Source of the DNA: Saccharomonospora sp. NB11
Lineage (GTDB): Bacteria > Actinomycetota > Actinomycetes > Mycobacteriales > Pseudonocardiaceae
Assembly (NCBI RefSeq): GCF_015910535.1
Contig: NZ_JACBJG010000008.1
Span: forward strand, 124,001 to 188,000
DNA: 64,000 bases
Direction: 5' to 3'
Within the stretch, counting starts at the first letter, position 1; each line of letters begins with the position of its first letter. Below the pieces are notes generated by a model. The model had not been told where the DNA came from. It ran no database searches and saw only the letters and a program-made list of their open reading frames with translations. The position numbers and the translations under genes are program-made. Positions 23,753 to 29,783 of this stretch are shown one piece after another.

Positions 23753-24766
23753 TCATAGCTCGGCTGCATTCCGTACACGGCGTGGCCGACCCGAGGTGTG
23801 ACCGCTTCCACGAAAAGTCTGCCGATACCGGCTGGGTGTGACACCGAGCGTACGCGCGAAGTGCTGCCGCAGTGACACCGTCGTCGAGAATCCCGTCGCC
23901 GCGGCCACCCGTTCGACGGGCAGATCGGTGCGTTCGAGGAGCTGCCGGGCGCGCTCGACGCGCTGGCGGAGCAACCACTGGTGCGGCGACAGCCCGACTT
24001 CCTGGCGGAACCGCCGGGTGAACGACCGGGTGCTCATGGCCGCGTGGTCGGCCAGCTCGGCCAGCGACAGCGGACGGTGCAGGTGTCGCAGCGCCCAGTC
24101 CCGGGTGGCGGCCGTCGAACCGTGAGGCGCTGCCGGAGGCACCGGGACCTGGAGGTACTGGGCCTGACCGCCGTCGCGGTGCGGAGGCACCACGGTGGTG
24201 CGGGCGACCTCCGCCGCCACCGCAGCGCCGTGGTCGCGGCGGATGAGGTGCAGGCACAGATCGATCCCGGCCGCCTCGCCCGCGGAGGTGAGCACGTCGC
24301 CGTTGTCCGTGTACAGCACGTCCGGTTCGAGATGCACGGCCGGGTACGCGCGGCGGAACGTCTCGGTCGACTTCCAGTGCGTGGTGGCGCGGAGCCCGTC
24401 GAGCAGACCGGCTTCGGCGAGCACGAACGCGCCGGTGCAGATCGAGGCCAGGCGCGTGCCCGGTCGAACCCGGCGCAACGCGTCGGCCAGCGGTGGCGAC
24501 AGGGCCCGCCCGGGCTCGTCGAGGTCGTGGCTCGCGGGCACGACCACGGTCTCGGCCCGCTCCAGCAGGTCGACACCGCGGTCGACGCGCACGGAGAAGT
24601 CCGCGTCGGTGCGCACCTCGCCGGGGTCGAGTGCGCAGGTGTGCACCGCGTAGAGCGCCGTGCCGTCCGGTGCGCGGGCCGAGCTGAAGAGCTGGTGCAC
24701 GAGGCCGAGCTCCAGCGGCAGCACACCCTCCCGCACGAGGACGGCGACGGTGTGGGCAGCGGGCAT
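23753..24766 (-). CDS. GlxA family AraC-type regulator (DJ-1/PfpI + HTH)
   Basis: 337 residues. The N-terminal ~185 residues are a DJ-1/PfpI (class I glutamine amidotransferase-like) domain; the nucleophile-elbow region is LASICTGAFVLAEAGLLDG. The C-terminal AraC double helix-turn-helix is LAELADHAAMSTRSFTRRF and VERVAAATGFSTTVSLRQHF. GlxA proteins are usually activators. It is divergent from an NAD(P)H oxidoreductase with a ~70-bp shared promoter region, making that gene the most likely target. Confidence 0.87.
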   Translation of the reverse strand: MPAAHTVAVLVREGVLPLELGLVHQLFSSARAPDGTALYAVHTCALDPGEVRTDADFSVRVDRGVDLLERAETVVVPASHDLDEPGRALSPPLADALRRVRPGTRLASICTGAFVLAEAGLLDGLRATTHWKSTETFRRAYPAVHLEPDVLYTDNGDVLTSAGEAAGIDLCLHLIRRDHGAAVAAEVARTTVVPPHRDGGQAQYLQVPVPPAAPHGSTAATRDWALRHLHRPLSLAELADHAAMSTRSFTRRFRQEVGLSPHQWLLRQRVERARQLLERTDLPVERVAAATGFSTTVSLRQHFARTLGVTPSRYRQTFRGSGHTSGRPRRVRNAAEL

Positions 24767-24837: not shown

Positions 24838-25698
24838 ATGAACGTGCTCTGGATCGTCGCCCACCCGGATCGCCGCTCGTTGACCCGTGCTCTCGCCGAC
24901 GAGGGCGTGGCCCACCTCGACGAGCTCGGCCACGACGTGCGGGTGCGCGACCTCTACGCGATGGACTGGAACCCGGTCGTGGACGCCGCCGACTTCGCCC
25001 ACGACCCGGCCGAACGCCTCCTGGTCGGAGAGGCCGCGAAGGAGGCTCTTCGGCGGGGAACGTTGAGCGACGACATCCGCGCCGAGCAGGAGCTGGTGCG
25101 CGCGGCGGACGTACTGATCGTGCAGTTCCCGCTCTGGTGGTACGGGATGCCCGCCATCCTGAAGGGCTGGTTCGACCGCGTTTTCGTCAATGGCTTCGCC
25201 TTCGGCGTGACGGACCCCGACACCGGGACGGTGCTGCGGTACGGCGACGGCGGACTGCGTGGCAGGCGGGCCATGATCGTCACGACGATCGGTGCGCGCG
25301 AGGCGGCGTTCGGCCCACGCGGCATCCACGGAGAGCTGGAGGAGGTCCTCTTCCCGATCCAGCACGGCATCTTCCACTACACCGGAATGGACCCCTTGCC
25401 GCCGTTCGCCGTCTACGGAGCGGACCGGGCCACTGCGCACGACTTCGCAAGAGCAGCCGCACGGTTGCGCGAACGACTGTCGGCGCTGGCGGACATCGAA
25501 CCGGTCCGCTTCCGCACCCAGAACGGCGGTGACTACGACGCCGACCTCGTCCTGCGTCCCCACGTCGCCCCCGGCGTCACCGGCCTGGCCGCCCACTACC
25601 TCACGTCGGCGACCGAGCGACACGGCAATCTGCAGTCCGTGTCGCCCGTGCCGTCCGACCTGGGGGAGGGCCGGCGGACCCCCGTCGTCTCACCCTGA
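24838..25698 (+). CDS. Flavodoxin-like fold NAD(P)H quinone oxidoreductase
   Basis: 286 residues. The first ~200 match the NQO1/MdaB fold: IVAHPDRRSLTRAL for FMN/FAD phosphate binding, QFPLWWYGMPAILKGWFDRVF in the core, and GRRAMIVTTIGARE. The last ~70 residues (from about 215) are a low-complexity tail with no clear domain. Such enzymes reduce quinones or electrophiles by two electrons. Probably controlled by the divergent GlxA regulator. Confidence 0.85.
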   Translation: MNVLWIVAHPDRRSLTRALADEGVAHLDELGHDVRVRDLYAMDWNPVVDAADFAHDPAERLLVGEAAKEALRRGTLSDDIRAEQELVRAADVLIVQFPLWWYGMPAILKGWFDRVFVNGFAFGVTDPDTGTVLRYGDGGLRGRRAMIVTTIGAREAAFGPRGIHGELEEVLFPIQHGIFHYTGMDPLPPFAVYGADRATAHDFARAAARLRERLSALADIEPVRFRTQNGGDYDADLVLRPHVAPGVTGLAAHYLTSATERHGNLQSVSPVPSDLGEGRRTPVVSP

Positions 25699-25720
25699 CG
25701 TCGTGAATCGAAACGCGGCT

Positions 25721-25975
25721 TCAGAACCGCAGTTCCGAGTCGGGATGCCGGGTTCGTCGCGCCACCGGCGCCGAACCCGGACGCAGCTCGTCCACCAGCT
25801 CCTCGGTGTGACGAGCCGAGACCTCGCTCACCGACCACAGCACGCGCAGTCCCTCGGCCACCCGGCGGGCGAAGGCCGGCTCGACGTCCGGTGCCGGGCC
25901 GCTGTGGCGCACGAGTACGCCGACTCCAGCGAGCACACAGGCCAGGACGGCGAGGAACAACACGGTCAGAACCAC
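25721..25975 (-). CDS. Small single-pass membrane protein, unknown
   Basis: 84 residues from a GTG at 25975 with GAGGAG five nt upstream. The N-terminal hydrophobic stretch VLTVLFLAVLACVLAGVGVL is one membrane helix, followed by a cytoplasmic or periplasmic helix-rich region (FARRVAEGLRVLWSVSEVSA) and a basic tail. I do not recognise a family. It is divergent from the MocR regulator across 70 bp, so it may share that control region. Confidence 0.6.
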   Translation of the reverse strand: MVLTVLFLAVLACVLAGVGVLVRHSGPAPDVEPAFARRVAEGLRVLWSVSEVSARHTEELVDELRPGSAPVARRTRHPDSELRF

Positions 25976-26014
25976 GACGCTCCTCTCTGGTTCGCAACCC
26001 CTCGAACACTTCTC

Positions 26015-26055
26015 GATTGGACTGTCACTGCTCTAGCATCGGTCGGTGATTGGAC
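26015..26055 (+). promoter_or_regulatory. Candidate MocR operator (direct repeats) and leaderless promoter
   Basis: GATTGGAC occurs at 26015-26022 and again at 26048-26055, in direct orientation with a 33-bp period (about three helical turns). Between them TAGCAT (26034-26039) lies six nt before the GTG at 26046. MocR regulators such as GabR and PdxR bind direct repeats spaced about this far, so self-repression is plausible. Confidence 0.55.
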
Positions 26056-27572
26056 CGGAGGTAGTGCCAATGCTGCGAGAAGTGGACCGTTTCGCCGATG
26101 CTGCGGCGCTGGCCCCGGTCCTCGGTGACTGGAGCGCCGGTGACGGGCCGCTCTACCGCAAGCTCTCCGCGGCTCTCGTCCGCGCCGTCGACGATGGTGC
26201 GCTCGGCTCGGGCGAGCGCCTGCCGTCGGAGCGCGAGCTGGCCAGGGTGCTGGCCGTGAGCCGAGCCACCGTCGTCGCCGCCTACGACGACCTCCGTGAT
26301 CGAGGAGTCGTCGAGCGCAGGCAGGGCAGCGGGACGAGGGTCAACGGTCGTCACAGGGTGCGTCGCAGCGACGGCCGCGTGCACGGCGGGCAGGGCACCG
26401 CGATCATGCAGCGGCTCATCGACGGTCCGGGTTCGTTGATCTCGTTGGGTCACGCCGCCGACGGCGGGCTCCCGGAGGTCGCCGACGCCGTGCGTGACGT
26501 CGCGGCTCACGAGCTGGACGACCTGCTCGCCGATCCCGGGTACCACCCGCGCGGCCTCCCGGGGTTGCGCACCGCCATCGCCGAGCACTACACCGCCACC
26601 GGGCTGCCCACCACACCGGACCAGGTGCTCGTCACCGCCGGTGCCCACCAGGCGTTGGTGCTGCTCGCCGAGATCTACCTCCGCAACGCCTCCGCCGTGG
26701 TGGTGGAGGCGCCGAGCTGGTCGCCGTGCCTGGACATCTTCCGGCAGCACGGGGTGCGGCTGATCCCGGTCGGTCTCGACGACGACGGCGACGACGGCAT
26801 CGACGTCCGGGCGCTCGCGTCCGCGCTCGCGACCGGTTCCCCGAGCCTGCTCTACGTCATGCCCAGCTTCCACAACCCCACCGGCCGCCTCATGTCGGCG
26901 ACCCGCAGGCGGCAGGTCGCCGAGCTCGCGGCCCGGTACGAGGTGGCGGTGGTCGAGGACAACGCCTACGAGGGCAGCCTGTTGTCCACGGAGGTGGAGA
27001 CGATGCCCGCCCCGCTCGCCGCGTACGCGCCCGCGTCCGCGGAGGTGGTGACGGTCGCCTCCCTGAAGGGGGTCTGGGCGGGTCTCCGGGTCGGCTGGAT
27101 GCGTGGTCCGGTCGGTGTCATCGAGCGGTGTGCCCGGCGCAAGGCCATGGCGGATCTCGGCAGTCCACTGCTCGATCAGGCGGTGGCCGCGAAGCTGGTG
27201 CCCCAGCTCGGCGAACTCCGCCGCTCCCGGTCGGCCGTGCGTCGTCAGCAGTGCGCGGAGCTGGAGCGACTGTTGCGCGAGACGCTGCCGGAATGGAGCT
27301 GGCGCACCCCCGACGGCGGGTTGTCGCTGTGGGTGCGCCTGCCCGGCGACCACAGCGCCGACGTCTTCGCGCAGCTCGCACTGCGGCACGGCGTCGAGGT
27401 GATTCCCGGATCGGCGATGGACCCCACCGGCGGGCACGACGCCTACTTCCGCATCCCGTTCCTGCGCCCGCCCGAGGTGCTCGCGGAACTGGTGGCCCGG
27501 CTCGCGTCCGCCTGGACCGAGCTGCAACGGCACGGCCCGCGCGAGGACCTGCCGTTGTGCCCGGTCGTCTGA
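26046..27572 (+). CDS. MocR family PLP-dependent transcriptional regulator
   Basis: 508 residues. An N-terminal GntR-type winged helix (about 35-105; GERLPSERELARVLAVSRATV) is fused to a fold-type I aminotransferase-like domain (about 130-495) with FHNPTG, the Asp in VVEDNAYEG and the PLP Lys341 in VASLKGVWAGLRVGW. The GTG at 26046 fits a leaderless transcript; an internal ATG at 26070 with GGAGG 8 nt upstream is a good alternative. Targets of this class include vitamin B6 or amino-acid metabolism. The divergent small membrane gene or a lost neighbour could be the target. Confidence 0.87.
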   Translation: MIGPEVVPMLREVDRFADAAALAPVLGDWSAGDGPLYRKLSAALVRAVDDGALGSGERLPSERELARVLAVSRATVVAAYDDLRDRGVVERRQGSGTRVNGRHRVRRSDGRVHGGQGTAIMQRLIDGPGSLISLGHAADGGLPEVADAVRDVAAHELDDLLADPGYHPRGLPGLRTAIAEHYTATGLPTTPDQVLVTAGAHQALVLLAEIYLRNASAVVVEAPSWSPCLDIFRQHGVRLIPVGLDDDGDDGIDVRALASALATGSPSLLYVMPSFHNPTGRLMSATRRRQVAELAARYEVAVVEDNAYEGSLLSTEVETMPAPLAAYAPASAEVVTVASLKGVWAGLRVGWMRGPVGVIERCARRKAMADLGSPLLDQAVAAKLVPQLGELRRSRSAVRRQQCAELERLLRETLPEWSWRTPDGGLSLWVRLPGDHSADVFAQLALRHGVEVIPGSAMDPTGGHDAYFRIPFLRPPEVLAELVARLASAWTELQRHGPREDLPLCPVV

Positions 27573-27916
27573 CGGCGCGCGGTCACCGCCAGCGGACGCG
27601 TAACAGCTTCGGCCAGTCGTCCACCAGCCCGGCGTCGCCCTCGACGTGCAACGACGCGAGCGGCGCGCGGTCGACCGGCCCCGGCGCGCCCGCCGCGAGT
27701 TCGGCGTCGAGGCGGTGGACGGTCGATGGCGTCGATCCACATGGTCACGTCCACAACCGGAAGAGTGACATGCGACACCGACAACGGCGCGTGACCCGGT
27801 CGTCGGATGCCACGGCGTCACGGCACCGGGACGAGGCCGTCGAGCGCGATCGTCGGCCATGCGTGGCTACACTGCGGGCGAATGCGCTGCGCGAGTGTCG
27901 CGAAAGGTCGGTCGAC
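27573..27916. other. Intergenic region with gene remnant and TetR promoter
   Basis: 344 bp. The first ~200 bp hold a coding-like but frame-shifted minus-strand segment (separate entry). Near the end, TACACT at 27868-27873 is a plausible -10 for the TetR gene with a leader of about 37 nt. Confidence 0.4.
27583..27784 (-). pseudogene. Possible frameshifted remnant of a short gene
   Basis: On the minus strand one frame starts at 27784 (VSHVTLPVVDVTMWIDAID) and loses coding character near 27727. From there the neighbouring frame reads convincingly (RLDAELAAGAPGPVDRAPL, then VEGDAGLVDDWPKLLRVRW) to a TGA at 27583-27585. Codon bias is good in both parts, so a single +1 slip would join them into a ~65-residue product. 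It could be a decayed gene, a sequence error or coincidence. I do not recognise the product. Confidence 0.35.
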
Positions 27917-28555
27917 GTGTCGGATCCCGGGGACGGTCATGGTTCGGCGGCCTCGTCGAGCCCGGCTCCGACGTTCATCGAACAGGCACGTCGGCGACAG
28001 ATCATCGCCAGCACGATCGAACTGATCTCACAACAGGGCTACGCGGGCACGTCCCTGGCGGCCATAGCCGCGCACGCCGGGATCTCGAAGGCGGCGGTCC
28101 TGTACCACTTCGGATCGAAGGCCCAGCTCGCCGAGGCCACGCTGTCCGACGTGTTCGACCGGTTCGCCGCCCACGTGTGGACGCGGGTGGAACGCGAGAC
28201 CGACCCGACCGCCCGGCTGCTGGCCTACGTCCGCGCGATGATCGGCTACCAGCGCGAGCACCGCACCCACGTCCGGTTGATCACCGAGGTGCTGCTCGAC
28301 GACCGCGGGGGCACGCGGATGCGCCAACCCGGTCAGCACGACCGCCGGGGCCGCTGGCGGGCGCTCGCCGAGTTGCTGCGCCGCGGTCAGCAGGCGGGAG
28401 CGTTCCGGTCGTTCGACGTCCGCAGCGTCTCGCTGATCATCGGCGGTGCGATCGACAACCTCGTGGCGCACTGGCTGGCCGACCCGGAGCTCGACCTGGA
28501 CACGGCGACGAGGGAACTCGAAACGTTCGTGCTCACGGCCGTCGAGGCGCGCTGA
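27917..28555 (+). CDS. TetR/AcrR family regulator
   Basis: 212 residues from a GTG at 27917 (AAAGG upstream). The helix-turn-helix spans about 20-70 (RRRQIIASTIELISQQGYAG, TSLAAIAAHAGISKAAVLYHFGSK). The C-terminal ligand domain includes VRLITEVLLDD and FDVRSVSLIIGGAIDNLVAHW. It converges on the FAD monooxygenase with a 23-bp overlap of 3' ends. That gene carries a TetR-like palindrome in its promoter, so this regulator is a good candidate for controlling it. Confidence 0.87.
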   Translation: MSDPGDGHGSAASSSPAPTFIEQARRRQIIASTIELISQQGYAGTSLAAIAAHAGISKAAVLYHFGSKAQLAEATLSDVFDRFAAHVWTRVERETDPTARLLAYVRAMIGYQREHRTHVRLITEVLLDDRGGTRMRQPGQHDRRGRWRALAELLRRGQQAGAFRSFDVRSVSLIIGGAIDNLVAHWLADPELDLDTATRELETFVLTAVEAR

Positions 28556-29783
28556 CGCGCCGGGCCAGGCGCGGGGGACGCTCGCGGACCAGGCCCATCC
28601 CACCGACGTAGGCCGTCATCGTCTGCACCAGGGCGCTGCGGCCGGCCAGCCGCAACGGCGTGGGGACGCCGCGGAGGGTGCCGTCGAGCGCGGGCCGCAG
28701 CAGTGTCTCGTGCTCGGTGTGCTGGGTCCGCTGTGTGAACGTCGTGGGCAGGCTGCGGCGGCGCTGCACCGCCGCCAGCTCCGCCGTCGTGACCGTGCCA
28801 CGGTCGCGGAGCGGTCCGGCGAGCAGCCGCCCGGCGGCCACGGCGTCGGCGACGGCGAGGTTGACCCCGACACCGCCGACGGGCGACATGGCGTGCGCGG
28901 CGTCACCGAGACACAGCAACCCCGGCCGGTACCACCGGCGTAGTCGGTTCATCTGCACCCGCAGCAGCTTCACGTCGTCCCACGACTTCACCGCGTCCGT
29001 GACGTCCGAATCGACTCCCAGCAGCCGACGCAGGTGGTCGCGGAAGGCGTCGAGTCCCGCCGCGCGCCGTTGAGTATCCGTCCCTTGTGGAATGAGATAG
29101 GCCACCTGCGCGTACGTGGCACGATCCATGCTCACCGCCGCACCACCGGCCTCGAAGTGCGCCATCACGGCGCCCCGTGCGTCGCCGACCGGCGCGGGCA
29201 GCCGCACCTGCCAGACGTCCATCGGCACGGGGAATCGACGAGGGTGCAATCCCGCCGCCGCCCGCACCACGGAGTCGCGACCGTCGCAGGCGAGGACGAG
29301 TTCGGCGCGCAGCTCGCCTTCGCCGTCGGCGTCGCGGTAGCGGACCCCGCGCACACGCCGTCGACCGTCGGCGTCTTCGTCGACCAGCAGGCCGGTGACC
29401 GCGGTCGAGCGACGCAGGGTGAACCCGGGTTCCTCGGAGGCCGCGTCGGCGAGCAGGTCCAGAAAGTCGCCTTGGGGGACCATCGCGATGTGGTCGTACG
29501 GCGCACGCAGGCGGCTGAAGTCGGCGAGGACGATGCTCTCGTCGCCGATGCGCACCCGCATGCGTTCGAGTCGCCCCGCGGGCAGCGCGGCGAATCGCTC
29601 GCCCAGGCCGAGTTCGTCGAGCAACCGAAGCGTCGACGGATGAACCGTGTCGCCACGGAAGTCGCGGAGGAAGTCGGCGTGTTTCTCCAGCACCGTCACG
29701 TCGATGCCCGCTCGGGCCAACAACAGGGCGACCGTCAGGCCGGCGGGACCACCGCCGACGACACAGCACGTCGTAGCGTCCAC
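28533..29783 (-). CDS. FAD-dependent aromatic-ring monooxygenase (PheA/TfdB-like)
   Basis: 416 residues. FAD-binding motifs of group A flavoprotein monooxygenases are clear: GGGPAGLTVALLLARAG at 9-25, DG in LACDGRDSVVRAAAG, and GD in LLCLGDAAHAMSPVGGVGVN. There is no thioredoxin-like C-terminal domain. Related enzymes hydroxylate phenols or modify antibiotics and polyketides. The GTG start at 29783 is leaderless: TAGTCT lies 6 nt upstream and ACCGATCGGT immediately before it. Confidence 0.88.
   Translation of the reverse strand: MDATTCCVVGGGPAGLTVALLLARAGIDVTVLEKHADFLRDFRGDTVHPSTLRLLDELGLGERFAALPAGRLERMRVRIGDESIVLADFSRLRAPYDHIAMVPQGDFLDLLADAASEEPGFTLRRSTAVTGLLVDEDADGRRRVRGVRYRDADGEGELRAELVLACDGRDSVVRAAAGLHPRRFPVPMDVWQVRLPAPVGDARGAVMAHFEAGGAAVSMDRATYAQVAYLIPQGTDTQRRAAGLDAFRDHLRRLLGVDSDVTDAVKSWDDVKLLRVQMNRLRRWYRPGLLCLGDAAHAMSPVGGVGVNLAVADAVAAGRLLAGPLRDRGTVTTAELAAVQRRRSLPTTFTQRTQHTEHETLLRPALDGTLRGVPTPLRLAGRSALVQTMTAYVGGMGLVRERPPRLARRVSAPRRP

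Follow-up and report, generated by a model that had tools for sequence, protein, structure and literature searches.

The window analysed here, a stretch of 64,000 nucleotides from Saccharomonospora sp. NB11, is part of genome G000 (4.3 Mb, 29 contigs). It contains a gene for a MocR-type regulator of 500 amino acids (26070–27572, plus strand) with GntR and class I/II aminotransferase domains and, divergent from it, a gene for a protein of 84 amino acids (25721–25975, minus strand). Before the MocR gene, between 22727 and 25975, the window encodes a sigma-70 factor, an AraC/FtrA-like regulator, a flavodoxin-fold oxidoreductase and the small protein; a similar gene set occurs together, as judged by eye, at locus L111 of genus g60. 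In three genomes of that genus (G300, G302 and G304) the small gene occurs a second time, 1.1–1.4 kb away. A plus-strand frame at 26726–28555 ends in a TetR-like protein (named by eye), and its 3′ end shares 23 bp with that of a converging FAD-binding monooxygenase-like gene (28533–29783, minus strand).

Four short boxes are spread over the start region of the MocR gene. Box 1 (26016–26022) and box 2 (26049–26055) both read ATTGGAC and are direct half-sites on the plus strand, lying within the two copies of GATTGGAC (26015–26022 and 26048–26055), which is found exactly twice in the whole window, 33 bp apart. Between these copies lies TAGCAT (26034–26039, plus strand), a hexamer of the TANNNT type and the putative −10 of the MocR gene; a simple sigma-70 scan of the start region returned no promoter-like hexamer pair and no −35. 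GTG at 26046–26048 (plus strand), 7 nt 3′ of TAGCAT, is at a distance that would suit a leaderless start, possible for this species alone, and it shares a frame with the ATG at 26070–26072, with no stop between the two in the window; an additional in-frame GTG lies at 26064. A Shine-Dalgarno sequence, GGAGG (26057–26061, plus strand), stands 8 nt 5′ of the ATG. Box 3, GCCAAT (26066–26071, minus strand), is an inverted half-site overlapping the ATG, and with box 4, AGTGGAC (26081–26087, plus strand), a direct half-site inside codons 4–6, it forms the element CCAAY-N11-TGGAY. Boxes 1, 2 and 4 are spaced 33 and 32 bp apart, or about three helical turns, with box 3 midway between 2 and 4. The repeat pair flanking the −10, as well as the GTG, GGAGG and ATG, are as an earlier note on this DNA had described them.

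The regulator matches Pfam families PF00392 (GntR) at residues 28–91 and PF00155 (aminotransferase) at 159–478, the MocR subfamily architecture of an N-terminal GntR winged helix-turn-helix joined to a class I/II aminotransferase domain. Lys333 aligns by eye with the lysine of the SK motif in 2egy and is the candidate PLP lysine; PLP binding is predicted. The best NCBIfam model is YczR (NF052290), with a score of 436.8 bits that is below the cut-off of 487.4, and the score for PdxR (NF052282), 223.7 bits, is likewise below its cut-off of 320. The divergent gene encodes 84 residues with no Pfam match and is not YczE, and PF19700, which we take to cover YczE, has no match in the organism's own genome. 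Assignment of the regulator to YczR fails on two features, the cut-off and a YczE neighbour. At the active-site floor the sequence here is Glu296-Asp-Asn-Ala and that of YczR is Val-Asp-Glu followed by Thr, a tentative comparison made by eye with a single passage of text.

An orthologue of the regulator is present in 53 of 390 family genomes (E ≤ 1e-110). Forty-nine of the 56 match rows were used, which together with L012 and L014 gives 51 regions; the rows left out are G006, whose N-terminus is missing in the draft, and G268:C3, G266, G261, G262, G268:C10 and G140. Several MocR matches, in G261, G262, G263, G266, G267 and G268 (genus g58) and in G140, have one in-frame stop; these are possibly decayed genes, or the match may end past the gene. 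The 25 near relatives referred to below are the loci with at least 63% identity, including the window and excluding G006; five rows at 59–62% are not counted.

Among these 25 near relatives the best-kept stretch is 26063–26093, a block with the consensus AGnGCCAAT-N7-GAAnTGGAYCGTTTT, to which no strand is assigned and which covers the ATG and codons 2–8. Its AG and the TGG of box 4 are kept in all 25, each letter of CGTTTT in 23–25, and CCAATG in 24; CCAAT is present in all 25, the alignment blocks being anchored on it. In the flanking parts, the TGGAC columns of box 2 are kept in 18–21 of 25, GGAG in 18–22 (it is absent from L042, L047, L046 and L010), and the T, A and T of the putative −10 in 20, 22 and 22, respectively. 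Over the wider set, CCAAY-N11-TGGAY is found in 43 of the 51 orthologue regions, a count that, like the others, is not made of independent observations because the sequences are related. The same half-sites at spacings N5–N10 and N12–N17, and the reversed pattern, are each found in none of the 51. The strict element is missing from eight regions (L010, L014, L046, L068, L073, L075, L078 and L079), of which L010 and L046 still keep CCAAT and TGG.

The element accompanies the MocR gene in several families. Among class-level orthologues it is present in 10 of 11 of the closer set (E up to 1.2e-135; the exception is L115), and in its strict form in none of 11 weaker matches (E 7.7e-98 to 5.5e-91). 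Within the genus, CCAAT-N11-TGGAYC has exactly one match in each of the eight genomes with the MocR gene; of the four genomes without the gene, three have no match and G002 has two, elsewhere, with the reversed control giving zero or one per genus genome. Around the start codons of distant MocR genes (L125, L126, L128, L129, L131, L132, L133, L135, L015, L016, L017 and L019) alternating CCAAT and ATTGG boxes are seen by eye, frequently in the order CCAAT, ATTGG, ATG, and then CCAAT again in the first codons, and this habit may be wider than the MocR lineage described here.

The direct repeat itself is a less certain signal. At least two copies of GATTGGAC are found somewhere in 34 of 100 shuffles of the whole window, and an exact direct repeat of any 8-mer turns up in 201 of 5000 shuffles of 25976–26069, while 149 of the 2205 real tiles of 58 bp cut from the window contain one; because shuffled and real sequence match it this often, the exact repeat alone is weak evidence and only mildly unusual. 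Box distance was counted in the 23 of 25 near relatives with box 2 (L046 and L010 are without it) and corrected by 5 in nine loci (L003, L007, L044 and L048–L053), where CTGGA lies 5 bp downstream of box 2. Thirteen of the 23 have a [T/C]TGG box 32–33 bp 5′ of box 2, and no other distance is shared by more than two relatives; box 1 is absent in 10 of 23. In L017, a more distant MocR gene, there are two CCAAT-N11-TGGAC units 32 bp apart, which suggests the same spacing rule. From their sequence and conservation we regard boxes 1 and 2 as a real but secondary, putatively accessory half of an operator.

Taken together, the data are best explained by a predicted autoregulatory operator of the MocR gene consisting of an array of boxes 1–4, and we think this the probable function of the site. 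As judged from the sequence, the array has the make-up of a MocR-type operator (two to four boxes, direct and inverted, at helical spacing), and binding is predicted. The earlier note had proposed an operator at the repeat, and the proposal is well supported in kind: conservation supports the place, whereas the predicted extent is now 26016–26093 and the core, 26063–26093, lies mostly outside the span first proposed, the repeat being the less conserved half. We consider it unlikely that the conserved block is instead bound by a different regulator such as the AraC-type protein encoded nearby. An AraC/FtrA-like gene is indeed present at 23753–24766, the small gene of L111 has similar neighbours (by eye), and MocR itself is named as the binder by reasoning from sequence; however, published MocR sites have a similar half-site, and in several families the element is found with the MocR gene.

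Codon usage in the box was counted in the 46 of 51 regions that have a [V/L/M]DR motif at this place. CGT is used in 32 of 46 (3.2 expected), TTT in 21 of 26 (2.1 expected), TTG in 7 of 7 (0.3 expected) and GTG in 23 of 23 (12.7 expected), with GAC somewhat below expectation (35 of 46; 40.5 expected). Rare codon use is found in codons 4–8, the two codons after the phenylalanine being near expectation. Codons 2–4, just 5′ of the box, are also rarer than expected, so that the codon effect may in part be a general one. This last result is compatible with there being no operator and with the conservation reflecting an N-terminal peptide, EVDRF, together with the ordinary codon bias of translation starts, a reading to which we attach very little probability: valine, leucine and methionine interchange in the protein while NTGGA stays, and the neighbouring small genes avoid early TTT (their early phenylalanine codons are TTC in 21 and TTT in 1). 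A further observation against it comes from genus g50, where in 7 of 10 loci (L056, L057, L058, L063, L064, L069 and L071) the element lies 121–122 bp 5′ of the GPLY codon, out of the EVDRF frame and 5′ of a TANNNT hexamer that by eye is a putative promoter. At the same seven loci TANNNT is followed by 7 nt, ATG and then immediately TGGACC, and the MocR gene looks leaderless. The element is farther upstream in L065 and L055 and overlaps the ATG, as in the window, in L067.

The earlier note had also suggested that two protein forms are made from the two starts, and this is not supported. GTG is aligned with 26046 in only 1 of the 25 near relatives, that of this species; the aligned codons in six other loci of the genus are GAT, AGA, GAA, AAT, GAC and AAT, and 7 of the 25 (L044 and L048–L053) have an in-frame TAA between the GTG place and the ATG. 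A leaderless second start is thus rejected as a conserved feature. In M. tuberculosis leaderless transcripts are common and TANNNT is centred 7–12 bp before start sites (PMC3898074, the part available to us), and because of that distance a transcript start near 26046 is plausible, which would give a leader of about 24 nt with the Shine-Dalgarno sequence before the ATG. Since the distance from TAGCAT would permit a transcript to begin there, a GTG-started form is possible in this species alone. It is nonetheless very improbable that a leaderless GTG form of 508 amino acids and a Shine-Dalgarno-led ATG form of 500 alternate according to operator occupancy or the choice of promoter; the position of the GTG 7 nt past TAGCAT, in frame and with no stop, is compatible with such a switch, as are the leaderless transcripts of M. 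tuberculosis and the leaderless appearance of the seven g50 loci, although at another place, but the single GTG and the seven in-frame stops among near relatives argue against it.

A last alternative, an mRNA hairpin formed by boxes 2 and 3 and masking the Shine-Dalgarno sequence and start codon, was rejected and is highly improbable: in the window ATTGG can base-pair with CCAAT across GGAGG, but in none of the pairs do both partners change, one of the five pairs (columns 11 and 35) is broken in 15 of 25 relatives, the free consensus fold has three invariant pairs and −0.2 kcal/mol, no Rfam family matches 25600–26400, and the element is upstream of the putative promoter in seven g50 loci. The rare codons, the g50 position upstream of a putative promoter and a hairpin that lacks compensatory change together indicate that the element acts as DNA.

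The divergent small protein has one N-terminal hydrophobic helix and no match in Pfam or NCBIfam. All 25 near relatives have a homologue next to the MocR gene, with 24–69% identity (small-protein starts were picked by us from the reading frames), and in the genus the small gene is present in 8 of 12 genomes, the same eight that have the MocR gene; in G006, a draft with gaps, the two are about 7 kb apart. In an order-wide sample of 298 genomes a profile of the small protein had matches in 12, of which 10 belong to this family and 2 to another. Judged by coordinates, each of the 10 has a copy next to the MocR gene; in the other two (G553 and G597) the 3.2 kb examined contained no MocR match. These two loci (L109 and L110) contain a distant relative of the small protein, which in L109 (1285–1701) is directly 5′ of a frame named by eye as an Era-like GTPase. 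A structure model of the small protein has helices at 2–21 and 34–64, and with pLDDT 72.9 and pTM 0.40 only the helices are usable; five matches to solved structures, the best with E 0.43, were not taken as real. In MocR orthologues outside the near group the element is present and the small gene was not detected by search, so that the site does not depend on this neighbour. No promoter of the small gene was resolved at the locus.

We return to an operator of the MocR gene as the probable function. Half-sites TGGAC and GTCCA are 16 or 32–33 bp apart and would thus lie on one face of the DNA. A MocR dimer probably grips boxes 3 and 4 (CCAAT-N11-TGGAC) as the core site and from there reaches over the −10 and the transcription start as far as boxes 2 and 1. 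Bound in this way MocR would keep transcription from initiating at the TAGCAT promoter, and on boxes 3 and 4 it would also obstruct elongating polymerase; a ligand or the state of PLP would relieve or reshape binding. Translation would begin at ATG 26070, and the divergent gene of the small membrane protein is probably under the control of this array too. No wider regulon was found: TTGGAC-N24–30-TTGGAC occurs at two places in the organism's own genome, the second at C14:154106, a result that is uninformative because the reversed control gave six. More tentatively, and with rather less than even confidence, we suggest that a MocR lineage extending over several actinobacterial families keeps its operator inside the start and first codons, the site dictating the N-terminal tail and MocR serving as both repressor and elongation roadblock, and that a small one-helix membrane partner, undescribed so far, comes under this switch in the Saccharomonospora group and may signal back to it.

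The start of the gene is hereby corrected, and a small membrane protein family without a Pfam model is linked to a MocR regulator. The locus offers a clean test case for MocR as a roadblock on its own gene. None of the titles listed from the open-licence literature describes a MocR operator inside a coding region, which is weak evidence of novelty, and in that literature MocR, actinobacteria and 'small membrane protein' were not found together; the portion of PMC6917764 available contains no passage on repeats or promoters.

The comparisons that follow use those parts of the cited papers that were available. MocR operators have two to four boxes, most commonly two direct and one inverted, and the direct-direct-inverted-direct order, that of boxes 1–4 here, is given for a single regulog of two regulons (PMC5320631). 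The site here resembles such operators in its repeated TGG boxes, one to several helical turns apart and of mixed orientation, and differs in having boxes within coding sequence, of which the available part of that paper makes no mention. The half-site is shared with the published sites of TauR, CTGGACYTAA (PMC5320631), and of YczR in Gammaproteobacteria, GTCCACT/ACTGGAC; the YczR site given for Actinobacteria is GGCCA-N12-TGGCC, and both were derived from intergenic sequences (PMC4944035). The YczR group also shares with this locus a MocR protein, half-sites of GTCCA/TGGAC or GGCCA/TGGCC, and a divergent membrane-protein gene (PMC4944035), although the neighbour here has 84 residues and is not YczE, the regulator scores below the NCBIfam cut-off, and the spacing is CCA-N13-TGG rather than GGCCA-N12-TGGCC. 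The core here lies over the start codon and codons 4–6, whereas YczR sites were sought between genes, and operator searches limited to intergenic sequence, as in that study (PMC4944035), would miss the best-conserved part. The closest parallel in position is C.Kpn2I, whose site within its own coding region was shown to work as a roadblock (PMC6237814); here too a regulator site is inside its own coding region and a roadblock is proposed, for a protein of another family.
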